DNA of 64,000 nt from contig JBANAY010000003.1 in NCBI GenBank assembly GCA_037952775.1, forward strand, positions 20,398,001 to 20,462,000, written 5' to 3'. A program made the position numbers and the translations under genes. The notes under the pieces were generated by a model. It did no database searches and had not been told where the DNA came from. It saw only the letters and a program-made list of their open reading frames with translations. This stretch comes from Clonostachys chloroleuca (taxonomy: Eukaryota > Ascomycota > Sordariomycetes > Hypocreales > Bionectriaceae). Position 1 is the first letter of the stretch; each line of letters starts with the position of its first letter. Positions 7,202-28,501 of the stretch are shown here, one piece after another.

Positions 7202-8863
7202 TCACTGCTCGCCGGCTGCTTCTTGAAGATGAATCCATATCGTCTTCTGTCTCTCCTCTAGCCATCCTGCCACACCGTCGGCGGAAGTTTTTGAATCCTT
7301 CTCCCCGCTCTTATGACTATCCACACCCTCCATATGATCTTGGACAATAGATGTTTGCATTTCTCCGTATACAACGGCCACAAATGCCCTCATAAGGCCC
7401 CATGCCACATTCATCCCAAGACACATCCTAGACCCGCTTCCAAAGGCGAGGAAATGACCCTTCATCTCCTTACCCGCACCTTCTGGGCCTCTCGTAAGAC
7501 TTTCATGATCGTCTGTGGCTAGCCAACGACCGGGGAACCATCTTCGTGCGTCACTAAACACACTTTCTTTTCTCTGCATTCCCATCACCTCAGCGCTGAC
7601 CTGCCAACCAACTGGGATAAGCTGACCATGAACAATGAGGCCTTGTTCATCCACGATCTCCCTTTCCATGCTGAAAGGGATTGGCGGGTGGATTCTCAGT
7701 GTCTCGCGTATGACCGCGTTCAACAATGGCAGTCGCTTTAGCTTTTCTGCCGTCAAATCTGCCGCTGAAGAAGCCCCGGATTCAGCTATGGCATCTCTAA
7801 TTTCACTCCTTAGCCGCTGTTGAAGAGTTTTGTTCTCTGGCAGGGAGAGGAGACGGAATAAAGGTGCTAAACCATCAGCTGTTGTGCTCACCCCAGCCCA
7901 AAATTGGTCCAGAGAGTCACTCAGGATATACTCCTCTGAGGGTACAGCCGCCGTGGGACCATTTGTCCGGAAATGGGCATGAAGACGGCCCATGAGTGAT
8001 TGGTGTTCATCTTCCCCTCCGCAATTTTCATCTGTACGTTTCAATGCTTCCAATGCTTCCCTTCCTACCTGGTCTGAGAACAACCTGGAAGGTGTTGTTC
8101 CATCCACGGCTCCCGGCGCAAGGCCACATCGCCGAAGCCAGAGCGTGATTCTCGGCAGCAAGAACATCATGGCTCCAGCCGCACTGGACATTCGTGCCTC
8201 CTGAAATTCGGTGTCCACCTCCATGGCTGTCCTTTGCGCTTGGTCGTTTACCAAGTTCAACTGGCTGCCGGGACCATACACAATGAAGCTCATGACATCG
8301 TAAAGCGCAGGCCGTAGCATCTCACGAACCTCCACCACCGCACCACCACCAGGGCTCTTCCTCCCTATTCGTGAAGCTAAACGCAGCATGTCTCGTGCAG
8401 CGCGCAAGGTTACGTCAGTGACCTCCTTGGACTCTGCCATCTTGGCCGAGTACATGCTTCTAAGTGGCTTTCTTCGTTCGTGATGCACATCTCCGCGCAC
8501 AGTAGACACGAGGTTCTCCTCCCCGTAGTTGTGGAACGCAGGCAAGGGATCTGGTCGGTCCAGGCGCTGGGAGACGACAGAGATATCTCTCAGTCCGCTA
8601 AGGTCGTTGACAGAGACGTGACGCGGGGCGACTTGGACCAGAGGCCCGAATTTTTGGTGTAGAGCCTCGACGAAGGCATCCCGAGAACCGGTTAATTCAT
8701 GGTATTGAAGCGGGATGTTGGTGAGCTTGAGGAGACGAGGCCCTGGAAATGGGGACCTGAGGCGCCGGAAAGCAAGGGTGCTTGTGGCCAGGACGATGGC
8801 GCATGCGACGGTGGACGGAGAGGAGAGCAAAGCTACCGCCGGGGCAACGTAGGGTACGGGCAT
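7202..8863 (-). CDS. Cytochrome P450 monooxygenase
   Basis: A single-exon, 553-residue microsomal P450. An N-terminal hydrophobic anchor (about residues 5-30, VALLSSPSTVACAIVLATST) is followed by a Pro-rich hinge (PFPGPRLLKLTNIP). The I-helix oxygen-binding segment reads FWAGVSTTAD, the K-helix ExxR is ETLRIHPP, and the haem loop is FGSGSRMCLG with axial Cys about residue 481. All core P450 motifs are intact, so it should be active. The start is the ATG at 8861-8863 with a TATA box about 180 bases upstream. There is no adjacent reductase or backbone synthase, so the substrate cannot be inferred. It lies convergent to the OTT_1508-like gene. Lack of introns in a fungal P450 is not rare. Confidence 0.95.
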   Translation of the reverse strand: MPVPYVAPAVALLSSPSTVACAIVLATSTLAFRRLRSPFPGPRLLKLTNIPLQYHELTGSRDAFVEALHQKFGPLVQVAPRHVSVNDLSGLRDISVVSQRLDRPDPLPAFHNYGEENLVSTVRGDVHHERRKPLRSMYSAKMAESKEVTDVTLRAARDMLRLASRIGRKSPGGGAVVEVREMLRPALYDVMSFIVYGPGSQLNLVNDQAQRTAMEVDTEFQEARMSSAAGAMMFLLPRITLWLRRCGLAPGAVDGTTPSRLFSDQVGREALEALKRTDENCGGEDEHQSLMGRLHAHFRTNGPTAAVPSEEYILSDSLDQFWAGVSTTADGLAPLFRLLSLPENKTLQQRLRSEIRDAIAESGASSAADLTAEKLKRLPLLNAVIRETLRIHPPIPFSMEREIVDEQGLIVHGQLIPVGWQVSAEVMGMQRKESVFSDARRWFPGRWLATDDHESLTRGPEGAGKEMKGHFLAFGSGSRMCLGMNVAWGLMRAFVAVVYGEMQTSIVQDHMEGVDSHKSGEKDSKTSADGVAGWLEERQKTIWIHLQEAAGEQ

Positions 8864-9042
8864 GATTCAAAGTGACCAACCGTCACATCTTTTTCAGGTT
8901 GAGGAAACGCCCATTGTTCGTGGTGCGTTTGTCGTGGCTTATTATGAGGCTTAGTTCCGCCCGGCAAATGCGATGAATACGCCCAGACCCGCTAGAAAAG
9001 AAACATGGTGTGAACTTTGACCGAGGATCCAATCGGGGAAAG

Positions 9043-21462: not shown

Positions 21463-24400
21463 ATGACAACGCAAAGTACTATCAGCAGTGCAGATGTGGA
21501 GCAACAGGCTATCAGCAGAGCGGCGGCTGCCTTTGCTCAACTCCGCGGGGGCAATGATTCGCTCAAAGAATGCATCAACAACGCGACGAACGTTTCTGGG
21601 CTGGTAGAATCCATTGAGAGACGCCATAGGCACCTGGCAAGGAAATCTTCATCCAAATTACTCGCACTTCTTCAAAAGCACACGACATGGCTGGACAGCT
21701 TTTCCGGACTGATCGATGGTGCCGTGGAGACTCGAGCTGATCTCCTCTGCCCCGTGTGGGCGCCTATCCGGCTCTTACTTCTCGTAAGGAGAATCTTGTG
21801 AACCCTTGAGACTTTTAAGAACTTCAGCTGTTGACGAGTGTAGGCGTCCAACTTTCACGCCCAGGTTGCCCAGCAAATCACTACAATGATTGAAATCATT
21901 ACCGAGAGCCTGCCTCGGCTAGAACTGTACAAGAAGCTACAGTCAGACAAAAGTCTTCAAATTGCACTCTTGAATATATTCACGGATATCGTGGAGTTTT
22001 GCGCCGTCACATACAAGTACTTCAAGCGCGGGACGTTGGGTACGTTTCACTATGATATAATCTAAGAGTGATGTAGCTGAACTGCTAAACCAAAATATGA
22101 GCAGTGCGCATAGGAAAGTTGATCCTAACACCTCTCAAGACGGAATTCGACAATCTGTGCAAGCGCCTCAGATGGCACACCAAGAATGTCGATGATACTG
22201 CAGTCGCCATCGAGCTTTTGCGGGCTGCTGATTTCCGAGCCAAGATGCAGGCGCAGAACGCCGAGAATATGAGGTCCAGGTGCGACACCTGGCTGAACCC
22301 AGCGAATATGCTGGGTGTCCATCAGGCAAGGTCCCGGATGAGAGTCGCCGGTACGTGCGAGTGGCTGTTGTCGAGCCAAGCATACGATAGCTGGCTCAGG
22401 ACCGAGAGTTGTCTGGCCGAGGACAGATTGCTCAGTATTCTTGGCAAGGGCGGCTGTGGGAAATCCATCCTTTCGTCTTACATTGTAGAAAATACGCAGG
22501 AGTGGCATGGCATCACGATATACTTTTCGTTCTCCGGGGCGGATGCACCTCGCCAGACGCTCCGAAGCCTGGTTCGCTCGTTGGTGTCACAACTCGTTCA
22601 TAAGCCTGAGTATATGGGCGGGTACGAACTGGTGCATGAGTTGACTATGCAAGAAGGGTACTCGACGTATGATCTGTGGACTCTTCTGCATAAGATTCTC
22701 GGCTTGGGCACGGCTCCTCTATTCTTGGTTGTCGACGGAGTAGACGAGTGTTCTGAGCCAGCCGAACAGCTAGTCGAACACGTCATGAATATTCTCAACG
22801 TTATTCAATCTTGCAAGATCGTTCTCCTTGGGAGAGCTCATGTTTCGGAATTAAGAAGCCATAGCAGCAACATCATCGAGATGGACTCCACGGTTATCAA
22901 ATCAGATTTGCAATCATTTATCACCACCCAACTCCGCTCAAACACCAGACTTTACAGCCTTGGCATACAGGATTCCATTTCTCAAACACTGCTCGAGAGA
23001 TCCGACGGCATGTTTCTCTGGGTGAAGCTCATGATTGATGATTTGTCGAGGGCCTCCTCCGTGTCCGAGGTGACCCAAAAACTGGAGTGCCTGCCGAGAG
23101 GACTTCACGCAGCATACCACCAAATCATCCAGCACCTTGTACACACTCTAGATGATGTTGAGATCAAGCTAGCACAAAATATTCTCAGTTTCGTCGCAGC
23201 AGCAGGAAGGACGCTGGAGGTCGAAGAGCTGCACTGCCTTCAGGCCCTGTCCTCCCGGGCCAGCGCTGGAGATTACAGCCCAGGGTCCATACGGAATCAT
23301 ATTTACATCGACCCAGCCGAGAAGTTCTCGCGCGTATGCGGTGGTCTGCTCCATATCCTGGATGGAAAGGTCACGTTGGTGCACGTAACCGCAAAGGAAT
23401 TCTTGCAAAGGCCGGTCAACAAGCTGGAAACAGAGAGCCACCCTCAAGCGCTACTCTTTAGGGTTGACCTGATTCGTTCTCATGCGCTGTTCACCACAGC
23501 ATGCCTCGACTTTCTGCTGCTCGACGGAGCCGGAATAAGCCAGACGGACACACCACAAAGTCCCATGACCAAGAACATGCAGTTGTTCTTCAAGTATGCT
23601 GCAAAGTTCTTCGTCCACCATATCAAAAACTCTGGGCCAATTTCTGAAAGAAGATTGGCGAGAATCAGACAGCTCATCAATTCGGGTGGGATGGTTTCTC
23701 TCTATGAGCACTATTTTGTACTCATCCTTGAAGATGGGTACTATGAAGATCTAGAAGATGAATTCTCGAGCTTCTTCCAATGGGCCGAGACCCAGAATCT
23801 GGAACTTGGACCACAGAAGTCTTTCTTCACTGTTGCCCATGAAGAGTGCGTCCAAAGATTTGGCGCTGAAGACTGGCGGACCAAAGAGCTGGTGAGTCTA
23901 CTCACGGGCGAATCGCCACCGACAGAACATCCGCAGGTTGATCCAGCCGACAAGGTGGGAAGCAAGCAGGCCGCCGAGAGAGTCTCCGCCCTCATGAACT
24001 TGCTCAAAGAGAATCAGCAAATGCAAATAGTGACCAAAATCGACTTGCTTCTGAACATGCGATCACTGATCAGGATAAAGGCGCTGACTGACCCTCTTGA
24101 GGCACTCTTCCTCTTGATAATGAGGCAAGCGCACAGACTCCCAGCCGTCTTTCTAATGCTCGTCGGTAGCTTCTACCTAGATTTCAAAAAGCCACGACAG
24201 GCTTTGGCTGCGTTCGAGGCTGCTCTTGAAAATGTAGAACATCTCGACACGGCACTGAAGTTTGAGATATTGGATATCATCGGCAAGATATATACTTACA
24301 ATCTCATTGACTACACAAAGGCCGAGGCTGCCTACCGGAAGTCAGCATCGGGCAGACGTGAGATTCTCGGGTCTAATCACGAGAAAACGCTACATAGCCT

Positions 24401-25430
24401 CAATTGTCTGGCAAACGCGCTTTACGAACAGAAAGATTACGCCGCTGCCGTGGAAATATGGGTGGAAGTCTACGAGAAAAGGATGGCGTCACAGCTCAGC
24501 GCCACCTCTTCCAAGACAAGCCCGCGCGAGTTTCGTTTCGACCAAAGTCAGTTCTACGATAAGTTCAGACAGCTACGTCTGATGAGGGAAGAATTGCTTG
24601 GGAAAGAAAGTTTTGGTCTCGTTGGAGTGTCGGGCAGCCTGGCGTGTGCTCTCCACGCACAAGGCTATTTTGGCTTCGCCAAGATCTTATGGACATATGA
24701 TGTCGAAGCTTGGAAACGGCTACGTGGGGAGGACCACGCAGATACCTTGGTCATTATGAAAAATCTAGGTAATGTAATGGCGACTCTCGACCCGCTAGAA
24801 GCCGAGAATATATACAGGCAGGTATATACCTCCCAGAAGAACACGCTGGGGGAGGATCATCCGCAGACGCTTCAGAGCCTTTTTCATATAGCAGATACAC
24901 AGTACAGGCAGAAGAACTACTTTGCTGCCGAGAAGTCATTCCGTGCGGTCATCAGGATCAATGAAGAGGTTCAAGGAGATAGATACACAGGACCCCTCGA
25001 TCCTGTGGAGTCTTTAGCATGCACCCTGTTCTTCCTAAACAGGTTCGAAGAAACAGAGGTTCTCGATAGGCAGCTCCTTGCAAAGAGACAGAGGGAACTT
25101 GGAGCTAAAGATCCGAAAACTTTGCGCATCTTGGTACATTTAGGGCAAACGCTTCGCGCAAGAGGAAATTACGAAATGGCCCTCAAATTGGGGCGAGAAG
25201 CACTGCAGGATCAAGAGCATGTATTGGGAAGAGAACACCCCGACACTCTCGAAAGCATGTATCAGGTGGCGTACTCCTACCTCATGCTGGACCAGGAAGA
25301 AGAAGCCAAACAGGTATGCTTCAATGGTATTGAGAGACAGGTGCGAATCTTGGGCACGGAGAATGTGGTCACAAGGGGAACCATCCTTCTTCTCGCCACG
25401 ATATACACCCAGAAGAGACCGTATTGGTAG
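21463..25430 (+). CDS. NACHT-TPR STAND protein (fungal NLR-like receptor)
   Basis: Three exons, 21463..21783, 21844..22039 and 22105..25430, 1,280 residues. Order: an N-terminal helical region of the kind found before fungal NACHT domains (WLDSFSGLIDGAVETRADLL, VWAPIRLLLLASNF, likely DUF7708-like); a NACHT NTPase with Walker A GKGGCGKS (about 286-293) and Walker B LFLVVDGVDE (about 379-387); a winged-helix-like region; a linker; then kinesin-light-chain-type TPRs in the last 400 residues, seen as repeated GxxHxxTL blocks (LGSNHEKTLHSLNCLANALY, GEDHPQTLQSLFHIADTQYR, GREHPDTLESMYQVAYSYLM). Such STAND proteins act as signal-triggered switches in non-self recognition and cell death. Introns 1 and 2 are 60 and 65 nt with good signals. 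The gene appears intact; ligand unknown. Confidence 0.95.
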
Positions 25431-27308: not shown

Positions 27309-28331
27309 TTAATATTCAGAGCGCTTGTGACCAGGGCGCTTAGTCTTACCGAAATCGCCGGTGCTGCCGGGGATGACAATAGGAGGCTTAAGGCCGCCGC
27401 CGCCGCGCTTGTGGGGAGGACGCTTGGTCTTGCCAAAGTCACCGGTGCTGCCAGGGATGACAATCGGAGGCTTGAGACCGCCACCGCCGCGCTTATGAGG
27501 ACGCTTGGTCTTGCCGAAATCACCGGTGCTGCCGGGAATGACGATAGGGGGTTTGAGACCGCCGCCGCCGCGCTTGTGAGGACGCTTGGTCTTGCCGAAA
27601 TCGCCGGTGCTGCCGGGAATGACGATAGGGGGTTTGAGACCGCCACCGCCGCGCTTATGAGGACGCTTTGTCTTGCCGAAATCGCCGGTGCTGCCGGGGA
27701 TGACGATAGGGGGTTTGAGACCGCCACCGCCGCGCTTGTGAGGACGCTTGGTCTTGCCGAAATCACCGGTGCTGCCGGGGATGACAATAGGGGGCTTAAG
27801 ACCGCCGCCGCCGCGCTTGTGAGGACGCTTGGTCTTGCCAAAGTCACCGGTGCTGCCGGGGATGACAATAGGGGGCTTAAGACCGCCGCCGCCGCGCTTG
27901 TGAGGACGCTTGGTCTTGCCAAAGTCACCGGTGCTGCCGGGGATGACAATAGGGGGCTTAAGACCGCCGCCGCCGCGCTTGTGAGGACGCTTGGTCTTGC
28001 CAAAGTCACCGGTGCTGCCGGGGATGACAATAGGGGGCTTAAGACCGCCGCCGCCGCGCTTGTGAGGACGCTTGGTCTTGCCAAAGTCACCGGTGCTGCC
28101 GGGGATGACAATAGGGGGTTTGAGACCGCCACCGCCGCGCTTGTGAGGACGCTTGGTCTTGCCCATATCACCGGTGCTGCCGGGGATGATAATCGGAGGC
28201 TTGAGGCCGCCGCCGCCGCGTTCCTCCAGCACGATGTCGGCGGTAGCATCGTTGGCCCCCATAGCAAGTCCCTGGCTGGCAAGTCCCAGCCATAGGAAGA
28301 GGGCGGCGCCAAACTTGTTGATGGCGACCAT
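27309..28331 (-). CDS. Secreted Kex2-processed tandem-repeat peptide precursor (KEP/RiPP-like)
   Basis: Single exon, 340 residues, ATG at 28329-28331 (the frame continues upstream only to a GTG). Residues 1-23 form a signal peptide (MVAINKFGAALFLWLG, then LASQGLA); residues 24-38 are a short pro-segment ending in LEER. Eleven tandem units of 27-28 residues follow, each GGGGLKPPIVIP, then GSTGDFGKT, then KRPHKR, and a three-residue end SEY. Each unit ends in Lys-Arg, a Kex2 site; the inner Lys-Arg is followed by Pro and should be spared. Kex2 plus carboxypeptidase trimming would release eleven 25-mers of almost one sequence. This is the architecture of fungal Kex2-processed repeat proteins, which include alpha-pheromones and dikaritin/epichloecyclin precursors. 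The cores have no Cys or Tyr, and no UstY/DUF3328 gene is in the window, so modification is uncertain. Confidence 0.92.
   Translation of the reverse strand: MVAINKFGAALFLWLGLASQGLAMGANDATADIVLEERGGGGLKPPIIIPGSTGDMGKTKRPHKRGGGGLKPPIVIPGSTGDFGKTKRPHKRGGGGLKPPIVIPGSTGDFGKTKRPHKRGGGGLKPPIVIPGSTGDFGKTKRPHKRGGGGLKPPIVIPGSTGDFGKTKRPHKRGGGGLKPPIVIPGSTGDFGKTKRPHKRGGGGLKPPIVIPGSTGDFGKTKRPHKRGGGGLKPPIVIPGSTGDFGKTKRPHKRGGGGLKPPIVIPGSTGDFGKTKRPHKRGGGGLKPPIVIPGSTGDFGKTKRPPHKRGGGGLKPPIVIPGSTGDFGKTKRPGHKRSEY
27321..28217 (-). repeat. Eleven-unit 81-bp coding tandem repeat
   Basis: Eleven direct repeats, 81 bp each except two 84-bp units at the 3' end of the gene. Three consecutive units (about 27840-28082) are identical base for base. 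The others differ mainly at third positions (for example GGC/GGT, CTT/CTC), so the amino-acid repeat is kept. The first translated unit differs most (PIIIP and DMG instead of PIVIP and DFG). The last two carry an extra Pro or Gly in RPPHKR and RPGHKR. Confidence 0.97.
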
Positions 28332-28494: not shown

Positions 28495-28501
28495 CTTTAT
28501 A
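28495..28501 (-). promoter_or_regulatory. TATA box of the repeat-precursor gene
   Basis: Minus-strand TATAAAG about 165 bases upstream of the ATG at 28331. The spacing suits a highly expressed fungal gene. Confidence 0.5.

Follow-up and report, generated by a model that had tools for sequence, protein, structure and literature searches.

The 64,000 nucleotides of Clonostachys chloroleuca analyzed here (GenBank assembly GCA_037952775.1, contig JBANAY010000003.1, positions 20,398,001 to 20,462,000), referred to below as the window, contain a gene that, at a probability of about 0.65 by our estimate from sequence comparison, encodes a single-exon secreted precursor of a multi-copy peptide and belongs to a large set of Clonostachys genes that join one conserved leader to many different cargos. 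The repeat-precursor frame itself is real: on the minus strand, 28331-27309 is one uninterrupted open reading frame that runs from ATG to TAA, encodes 340 aa and requires no intron. That the gene is a peptide precursor we consider highly probable, and its membership of the shared-leader family, judged by sequence similarity, is more probable still. Eleven unmodified basic peptides would likely be released from the encoded protein.

The protein begins with a predicted signal peptide, MVAINKFGAALFLWLGLASQGLA (residues 1–23; 28263..28331, minus strand, as are all parts of the gene given below), whose cleavage point is placed from the sequence and from the similar leaders of paralogues. As the first-pass annotation had proposed, the N-terminus resembles a signal peptide, being hydrophobic, typical in layout by eye and common to the paralogues. 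The pro-segment MGANDATADIVLEER follows (residues 24–38; 28218..28262), defined by the sequence and the paralogue alignment. The annotation had also described a short pro-segment ending in Arg; an acidic segment of 15 residues (net charge −3) is indeed present, but it ends in EER, with one Arg instead of a dibasic pair. At the position aligned with the LEER of the window protein, nine paralogue pro-segments end in ER or QR. Unit comparison then delimits eleven units, each closed by KR, which is the number and the ending first claimed. Nine of them have 27 aa: unit 1 (28137..28217, with the variants I10 and M18), unit 2 (28056..28136), unit 3 (27975..28055), unit 4 (27894..27974), unit 5 (27813..27893), unit 6 (27732..27812), unit 7 (27651..27731), unit 8 (27570..27650) and unit 9 (27489..27569). 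The last two have 28 aa, namely unit 10 (27405..27488), with the C-terminus RPPHKR, and unit 11 (27321..27404), with RPGHKR. A tail of SEY and the stop TAA (27309..27320) complete the frame as read from the sequence. About 165 bases upstream of the ATG we noted by eye a TATA-like box, TATAAAG (28495..28501), which is a consensus match only.

The units share the consensus GGGGLKPPIVIPGSTGDFGKTKRPHKR; unit 1 differs from it at two residues (V to I and F to M), and units 2–9 are identical as proteins. Together the repeats make up 299 of the 340 residues, and TRF describes the array with a period of 81, 10.9 copies, 93% matches and a score of 1413, while the remaining four TRF rows of the window score 51–62. 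Units 3, 4 and 5 have the same DNA over the 81 aligned bases, beside other unit pairs that differ at up to 12, as expected for an array expanding from within. Over 81 aligned bases, a length that omits the additional codon found in units 10 and 11, the units depart from the consensus by 20 distinct substitutions. Of these, 17 are synonymous and 3 nonsynonymous, for a nonsynonymous expectation of 74% (binomial p = 5e-8). This excess of synonymous differences points to purifying selection on the peptide. Openness of the frame alone proves nothing, since a period of 81 is a multiple of three and other frames are therefore also open; it is the pattern of unit variation that settles the reading frame, with a synonymous to nonsynonymous ratio of 17:3 against 2:18 in each of the two stop-free alternatives. 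Two stop-containing frames give 1:19 and 0:20, and one further alternative also gives 17:3, yet it contains a stop and has the same wobble position.

Beyond the signal peptide, the protein has 22 dibasic sites, and every one of them is KR. The eleven at the unit ends precede Gly (ten) or Ser (one), and the eleven internal ones always precede Pro; Kex2 spares KR-P. Because the units are near-invariant as wholes, conservation of the KR sites adds nothing beyond that of the units. Trimming of KR would leave a 25-mer from nine units and a 26-mer from two; the earlier prediction of eleven 25-mers ending in KRPH is thus right in length for the nine, whereas the two longer ones do not end in KRPH. 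Published KEP criteria comprise at least three tandem repeats of 8–100 aa between KR, KK, RK or RR sites, with the repeats accounting for at least 15% of the protein, and the window protein has 11 units of 27–28 aa over 299/340 residues. A profile search of the genome gave one P_proprotein match above the cut-off, over 57 of 86 positions, and the neighboring frames carry what we take to be the Asp and His segments of a subtilisin, together with a putative membrane segment and an acidic tail; by these sequence features, a Kex2-like gene is present in the genome. The repeat values, the eleven KR-Gly/Ser sites and this gene bear out the Kex2-processed repeat layout proposed at first pass.

Processing would then proceed as follows. 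Signal peptidase would remove about residues 1–23, Kex2 would cut after each KR that precedes Gly or Ser, Kex2 or another protease would cut after the single Arg of LEER, and Kex1 would trim the KR from the released units. Eleven basic, Gly/Pro-rich 25–26-mers (net +3 for the 25-mer) would leave the cell unmodified, with the internal KR-P intact. As for single Arg, several peptides of KEPs expressed in Pichia were apparently cleaved after such a residue (PMC9769878).

Searches for relatives of the whole protein and of its cargo gave little. Among the best 7994 candidates by shared words (about 187–595 aa) in the protein collection, none matched the whole protein at E <= 1e-3; the phmmer self-match, run as a local control, reached 719 bits, which means that any near copy present in the scored set would have shown. 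Residues 1–65 had no match at E <= 1 among nine candidates. The PDB search returned no match and the Pfam search only matches below the cut-off; one of these, Myotoxin (E 5e-4; 20.7 bits, where the cut-off is 25), we took as a composition match to the Lys/Gly/Pro repeat. Eight words of the cargo were absent from all 30 relatives listed by the leader-group profile, and cargo words had no match in the literature searched. When the unit was compared with 48 cargos, with 300 shuffles each, the best were P0013 (1/300) and L060 (15/300), which is not significant for 48 tests. With Pfam above its cut-off, the PDB and the scored protein candidates all empty, the cargo fits the first-pass description of a peptide of no known type. 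These searches found no relative of the cargo; the membership of the gene in its group rests on the leader.

A search of its own genome with the whole protein found one other place, L002, whose alignment was confined to residues 1–42 (E 3.9e-5 for one genome). With the leader of L002 as query, 14 places were obtained at E <= 10, the best at 2.2e-23 (the query itself) and the weakest at 0.026, and 11 of them, query and window counted, lie at E <= 1e-5. The window was matched by this leader at 9.1e-7 and by that of L014 at 5.3e-5 (one-genome E-values), and was not recovered by the leaders of L023, L020 or L043. Adding the leaders of L014, L023, L020 and L043 brought the number of distinct places, which lie on three contigs, to 23; this is to be read as at least 23, since five leader queries may miss members. 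Met stands at the matched start in all 23. The leaders of L021 and L023 match at 6.1e-10, and that of L043 matches L060 at 2.1e-8 and L061 at 7.8e-6; both subgroups (L021/L023 and L043/L060/L061) join the main group only at E 0.001–0.03, and the six weakest places (L042, L045, L046, L048, L069 and L070) have a best E of 0.02–0.36. A reversed L014 leader and an unrelated cellulase N-terminus, which also ends in LEER, gave no match, but both are weak controls that yielded no first-look candidates, and the leader claim is therefore carried by the E-values.

The consensus of 17 aligned leaders is MVA.KqLSlAALlWLGLAsqGLAl..D..tndL.lveR, from which L017 and L022 were omitted for their frames and L060, L061, L069 and L070 as found later. 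The window leader is divergent: its mean identity to nine others is 58% in the signal and 32% in the pro-segment, compared with 67% and 45% for all ten among themselves, and its best score to 30 relatives corresponds to an E of 4.8 when scaled to the whole protein collection, which is not significant. Two further places were found at C3:30447887, equal to P0027 over 467/467 residues (100%), and at C3:28.05 Mb (L072), while frames at C3:29.72, 7.94 and 22.68 Mb match only in acidic repeats. The first-pass annotation had overlooked that the leader belongs to a large paralogue group with differing cargos. Six members (L010, L013, L015, L017, L022 and L048) have a stop or a frame change within the one-exon reading, which may reflect an intron, decay or an assembly error; the L015 group has intact relatives in other Clonostachys (P0011, P0016 and P0017).

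Most bodies in the leader group differ from each other, and in them acidic spacers such as DFDDELYER alternate with cargos that are amphipathic or basic and rich in Gly, Pro, Arg and Lys. When 15 bodies were compared from residue 43, nine pairs matched at E <= 1e-3, seven of them in acidic stretches and two, L011–L016 and L018–L020, at the level of the cargo. A GGASIN-type cargo is shared by L014 and L015, and an SKPK-type cargo by P0027 and L072. Seven units of KITAKGVAKGVGKVAKGALKLLFR type, with acidic DLEER/DLEAR spacers, occur in L011; L012 has two units of GMGDMIFGKEKTISYNP, L014 two of GGASINL, L043 four of PKGGGSRPKPSPPP and L060 five of the related GKKD-x-PV; L018 and L020 have RPGDD units with Trp-Gly and Gly/Arg or Gly/His tails, L021 and L023 Pro/Arg stretches, and L046 a Lys/Ala stretch. 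We defined 21 open members with a frame of at least 90 aa, namely 19 of the 23 leader places (L010, L015, L017 and L022 are shorter) plus L072 and P0027. At least two acidic blocks occur in 13 of the 21. A predicted fragment with a net charge of at least +3 is present in 17 and absent from four, by our own cutting rule and with L013 and L048 counted although part of their frames looks wrong. Unlike most of its sisters, the window member has no acidic spacer separating the units; its acidic part is the pro-segment, and the body as a whole carries a strong positive charge (+51). Synonymous differences also prevail among the units of L011 (26:7), L018 (10:2), L020 (17:4) and L043 (20:3); the units of L060, the other one of the five precursors tested, show no such excess (3:5).

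Long acidic stretches of the D-F-D-D-E-L-Y-E-R type occur in L011 (C4:9524709), L042 and L074. L042 (C4:5876447) consists of acidic repeats only, with no basic cargo, and L074 (C3:29.72 Mb), a long frame, has acidic repeats without basic cargo in the part seen, so that this repeat may not serve only as a spacer and may itself be a product. L069 (C3:14568115) and L070 (C3:13331003) are near copies separated by 1.2 Mb; they lie on opposite strands, their flanks match, and they are probably a recent duplication. DUF5987 and ATP-synt_C exceeded the cut-off in L011 as whole-protein sums, with no single stretch doing so, and were taken as repeat artefacts.

A ten-member profile with the window protein as its last row was used to score the best 7988 candidates, and at least 30 proteins among these were found at E <= 0.1. 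In the 30 listed relatives, 25 are named Clonostachys or Bionectria, four are JGI entries and one is Ephemerocybe; the species include rosea, solani, byssicola, rhizophaga, chloroleuca and ochroleuca. Cassettes recur between them with varying copy numbers. The L012 group has two copies in chloroleuca (where L012 equals P0004), four in rosea, four in JGI entries, three in byssicola and two in solani; the L014 group has two in its own genome, four in solani and three in rosea; the L015 group has one in rosea, three in rhizophaga and four in byssicola; the L011 group has seven in chloroleuca and six in solani; and the P0027 group has five in chloroleuca, five in ochroleuca and six in solani. The Ephemerocybe protein (P0031, E 0.086) is from the mushroom E. 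angulata, a basidiomycete, and has a similar acidic-spacer layout. In P0031 and in the JGI entries P0020, P0024 and P0030, acidic ER-ending spacers and basic stretches are similar and the N-terminus is different.

For the peptides we predict an outward-acting role in contact with other microbes. Clonostachys is mycoparasitic and root-living, and also endophytic (PMC9978495); the genus, together with the finding that most sister cargos are basic or amphipathic, leads us to an antimicrobial or antagonistic role as a first guess, which we hold tentatively and at somewhat below even odds. Sections 3.3.3 and 3.4 of that paper name no such peptide family and list uncharacterized orthogroups and effectors. 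The window 25-mer is basic (+3) and Gly/Pro-rich, with a mean hydrophobicity of 0.05, a calculated average mass of 2473.8 Da if unmodified, and one Phe as its sole aromatic residue besides the terminal His. An amphipathic helix was rejected for it (4037 of 5000 shuffles equal or exceed its value); the L011 cargo (88/5000 as high) and one stretch of L046 (58/5000) are amphipathic, and the result for a unit of P0023 was weak as well (504/5000). AlphaFold, given the uncut window protein as a single sequence, returned no confident fold (mean pLDDT 52.6), which decides nothing.

Other readings have to be weighed against this role. Le Marquer et al., on the model of Rep1 of Ustilago maydis, speculate that KEPs of stress-tolerant species may act in the cell wall (PMC6339444), and the Gly-rich, repetitive window sequence could suit peptides, or an uncut protein, that coat hyphae or spores; the polar, basic cargo is nevertheless unlike a water-repelling coat and the sister cargos seem too varied to build a single structure, so we think a structural or surface role unlikely. 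Much the same low probability attaches to a signaling peptide, either a self-acting fungal hormone or a ligand for receptors of plant or fungal partners. Such a peptide would agree with the KEP layout of alpha-pheromones, with the strong conservation of the units among themselves and with the endophytic life that Clonostachys leads besides that on fungi (PMC9978495), but ascomycete alpha-pheromones have a PCW-type Trp/Cys end and XA/XP steps for Ste13, and the window units have no Trp, no Cys and no XA/XP after KR. Moreover, the cargo has no relative in the searches made, and many cargos under one leader suit an arsenal better than a single signal.

Cyclization or another modification of the peptide is less probable again. 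Fungal RiPPs such as ustiloxin derive from KEPs (PMC7329392), and the window also includes, at a distance of about 18 kb, a frame (7202-8866) that resembles a P450 by eye, so a RiPP precursor served by enzymes other than UstYa can be conceived. The precursors of dikaritins (ustiloxin, phomopsin) have the same KEP layout as the window protein. Dikaritin cores carry Tyr or a similar residue for cross-linking, while no unit of the window protein contains Cys, Trp or Tyr, just as the annotation had stated. It had also reported no DUF3328/UstY gene in the window, and we found none there: the PF11807 (UstYa/DUF3328) search of the genome gave seven matches at four places, the nearest on the same contig and 6.8 Mb away, which makes dikaritin-type cyclization unlikely. 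The leader loci, moreover, are scattered over three contigs. The four UstYa-like places (C3:9.96, 27.26 and 28.99 Mb and C4:11.29 Mb) are candidates for dikaritin-type clusters in their own right. The least probable alternative is a non-functional minisatellite that is open by chance. An 81-base period would allow it, for one stop-free unit keeps the frame open and other frames are open as well; yet variation at the wobble position is specific to the coding frame and the leader and start are conserved, which already largely contradicts this explanation.

The multi-copy precursor with a shared leader remains the preferred reading. KEPs are an established kind (PMC6339444, PMC7329392, PMC9769878), and the window gene shares with them a signal-peptide-like start, near-identical tandem units separated by KR, a unit class of 25–50 aa and the lack of a DUF3328 neighbor; such a neighbor accompanies 22% of KEPs, leaving 78% without (Umemura 2020, PMC7329392). 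Unlike the surveyed KEPs, its leader is common to up to 22 other places with mostly different bodies, and its sisters are dominated by acidic spacers ending in a single Arg. Neither Clonostachys nor Bionectria is named in the main texts of the KEP surveys (Le Marquer 2019, PMC6339444; Umemura 2020, PMC7329392). We found no description of the shared-leader group in the literature searched, outside which lie supplements, preprints and most subscription papers, so a prior description is possible; the acidic-spacer words of the sisters had no match in this literature either. In the window, about 2 kb from the peptide gene, there is also a long frame of 1109 aa (22101-25430) that by eye resembles fungal NACHT/TPR proteins of the receptor type.

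Two animal systems offer comparisons of layout. In the precursors of amphibian skin defense peptides, the signal and the acidic pro-piece are conserved from one paralogue to the next while the mature peptides are unrelated, and the leader group resembles them in its constant signal and acidic pro-piece and its varying peptides; in contrast to them it is fungal, often has many copies, uses Kex2-type sites and is predicted only, and no homology is claimed. Insect precursors of the apidaecin type contain many copies of basic, Pro-containing peptides with acidic spacers that end in basic residues. The repeated basic peptides with Pro are found in the window gene and the acidic spacers in its sisters, whereas the window 25-mer has 4/25 Pro and no spacers, and no sequence relation is claimed.

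The leader-sharing family is the real interest of the finding. It may be, with about an even chance in our view, that Clonostachys possesses an arsenal resembling those of venoms and frog skin: one leader on some two dozen dispersed genes, mostly with different basic peptides, often in multiple copies and in many cases with acidic spacers as a buffer, the cassettes growing and shrinking in number from one species to another. The window gene would then be a spacer-less member carrying one orphan cargo elevenfold. KEPs are common and mostly have no assigned function, and the shared leader links precursors that no cargo search would link. It therefore provides a handle for the whole peptide repertoire of a biocontrol fungus, with which it can be tested whether such repertoires act against fungi.
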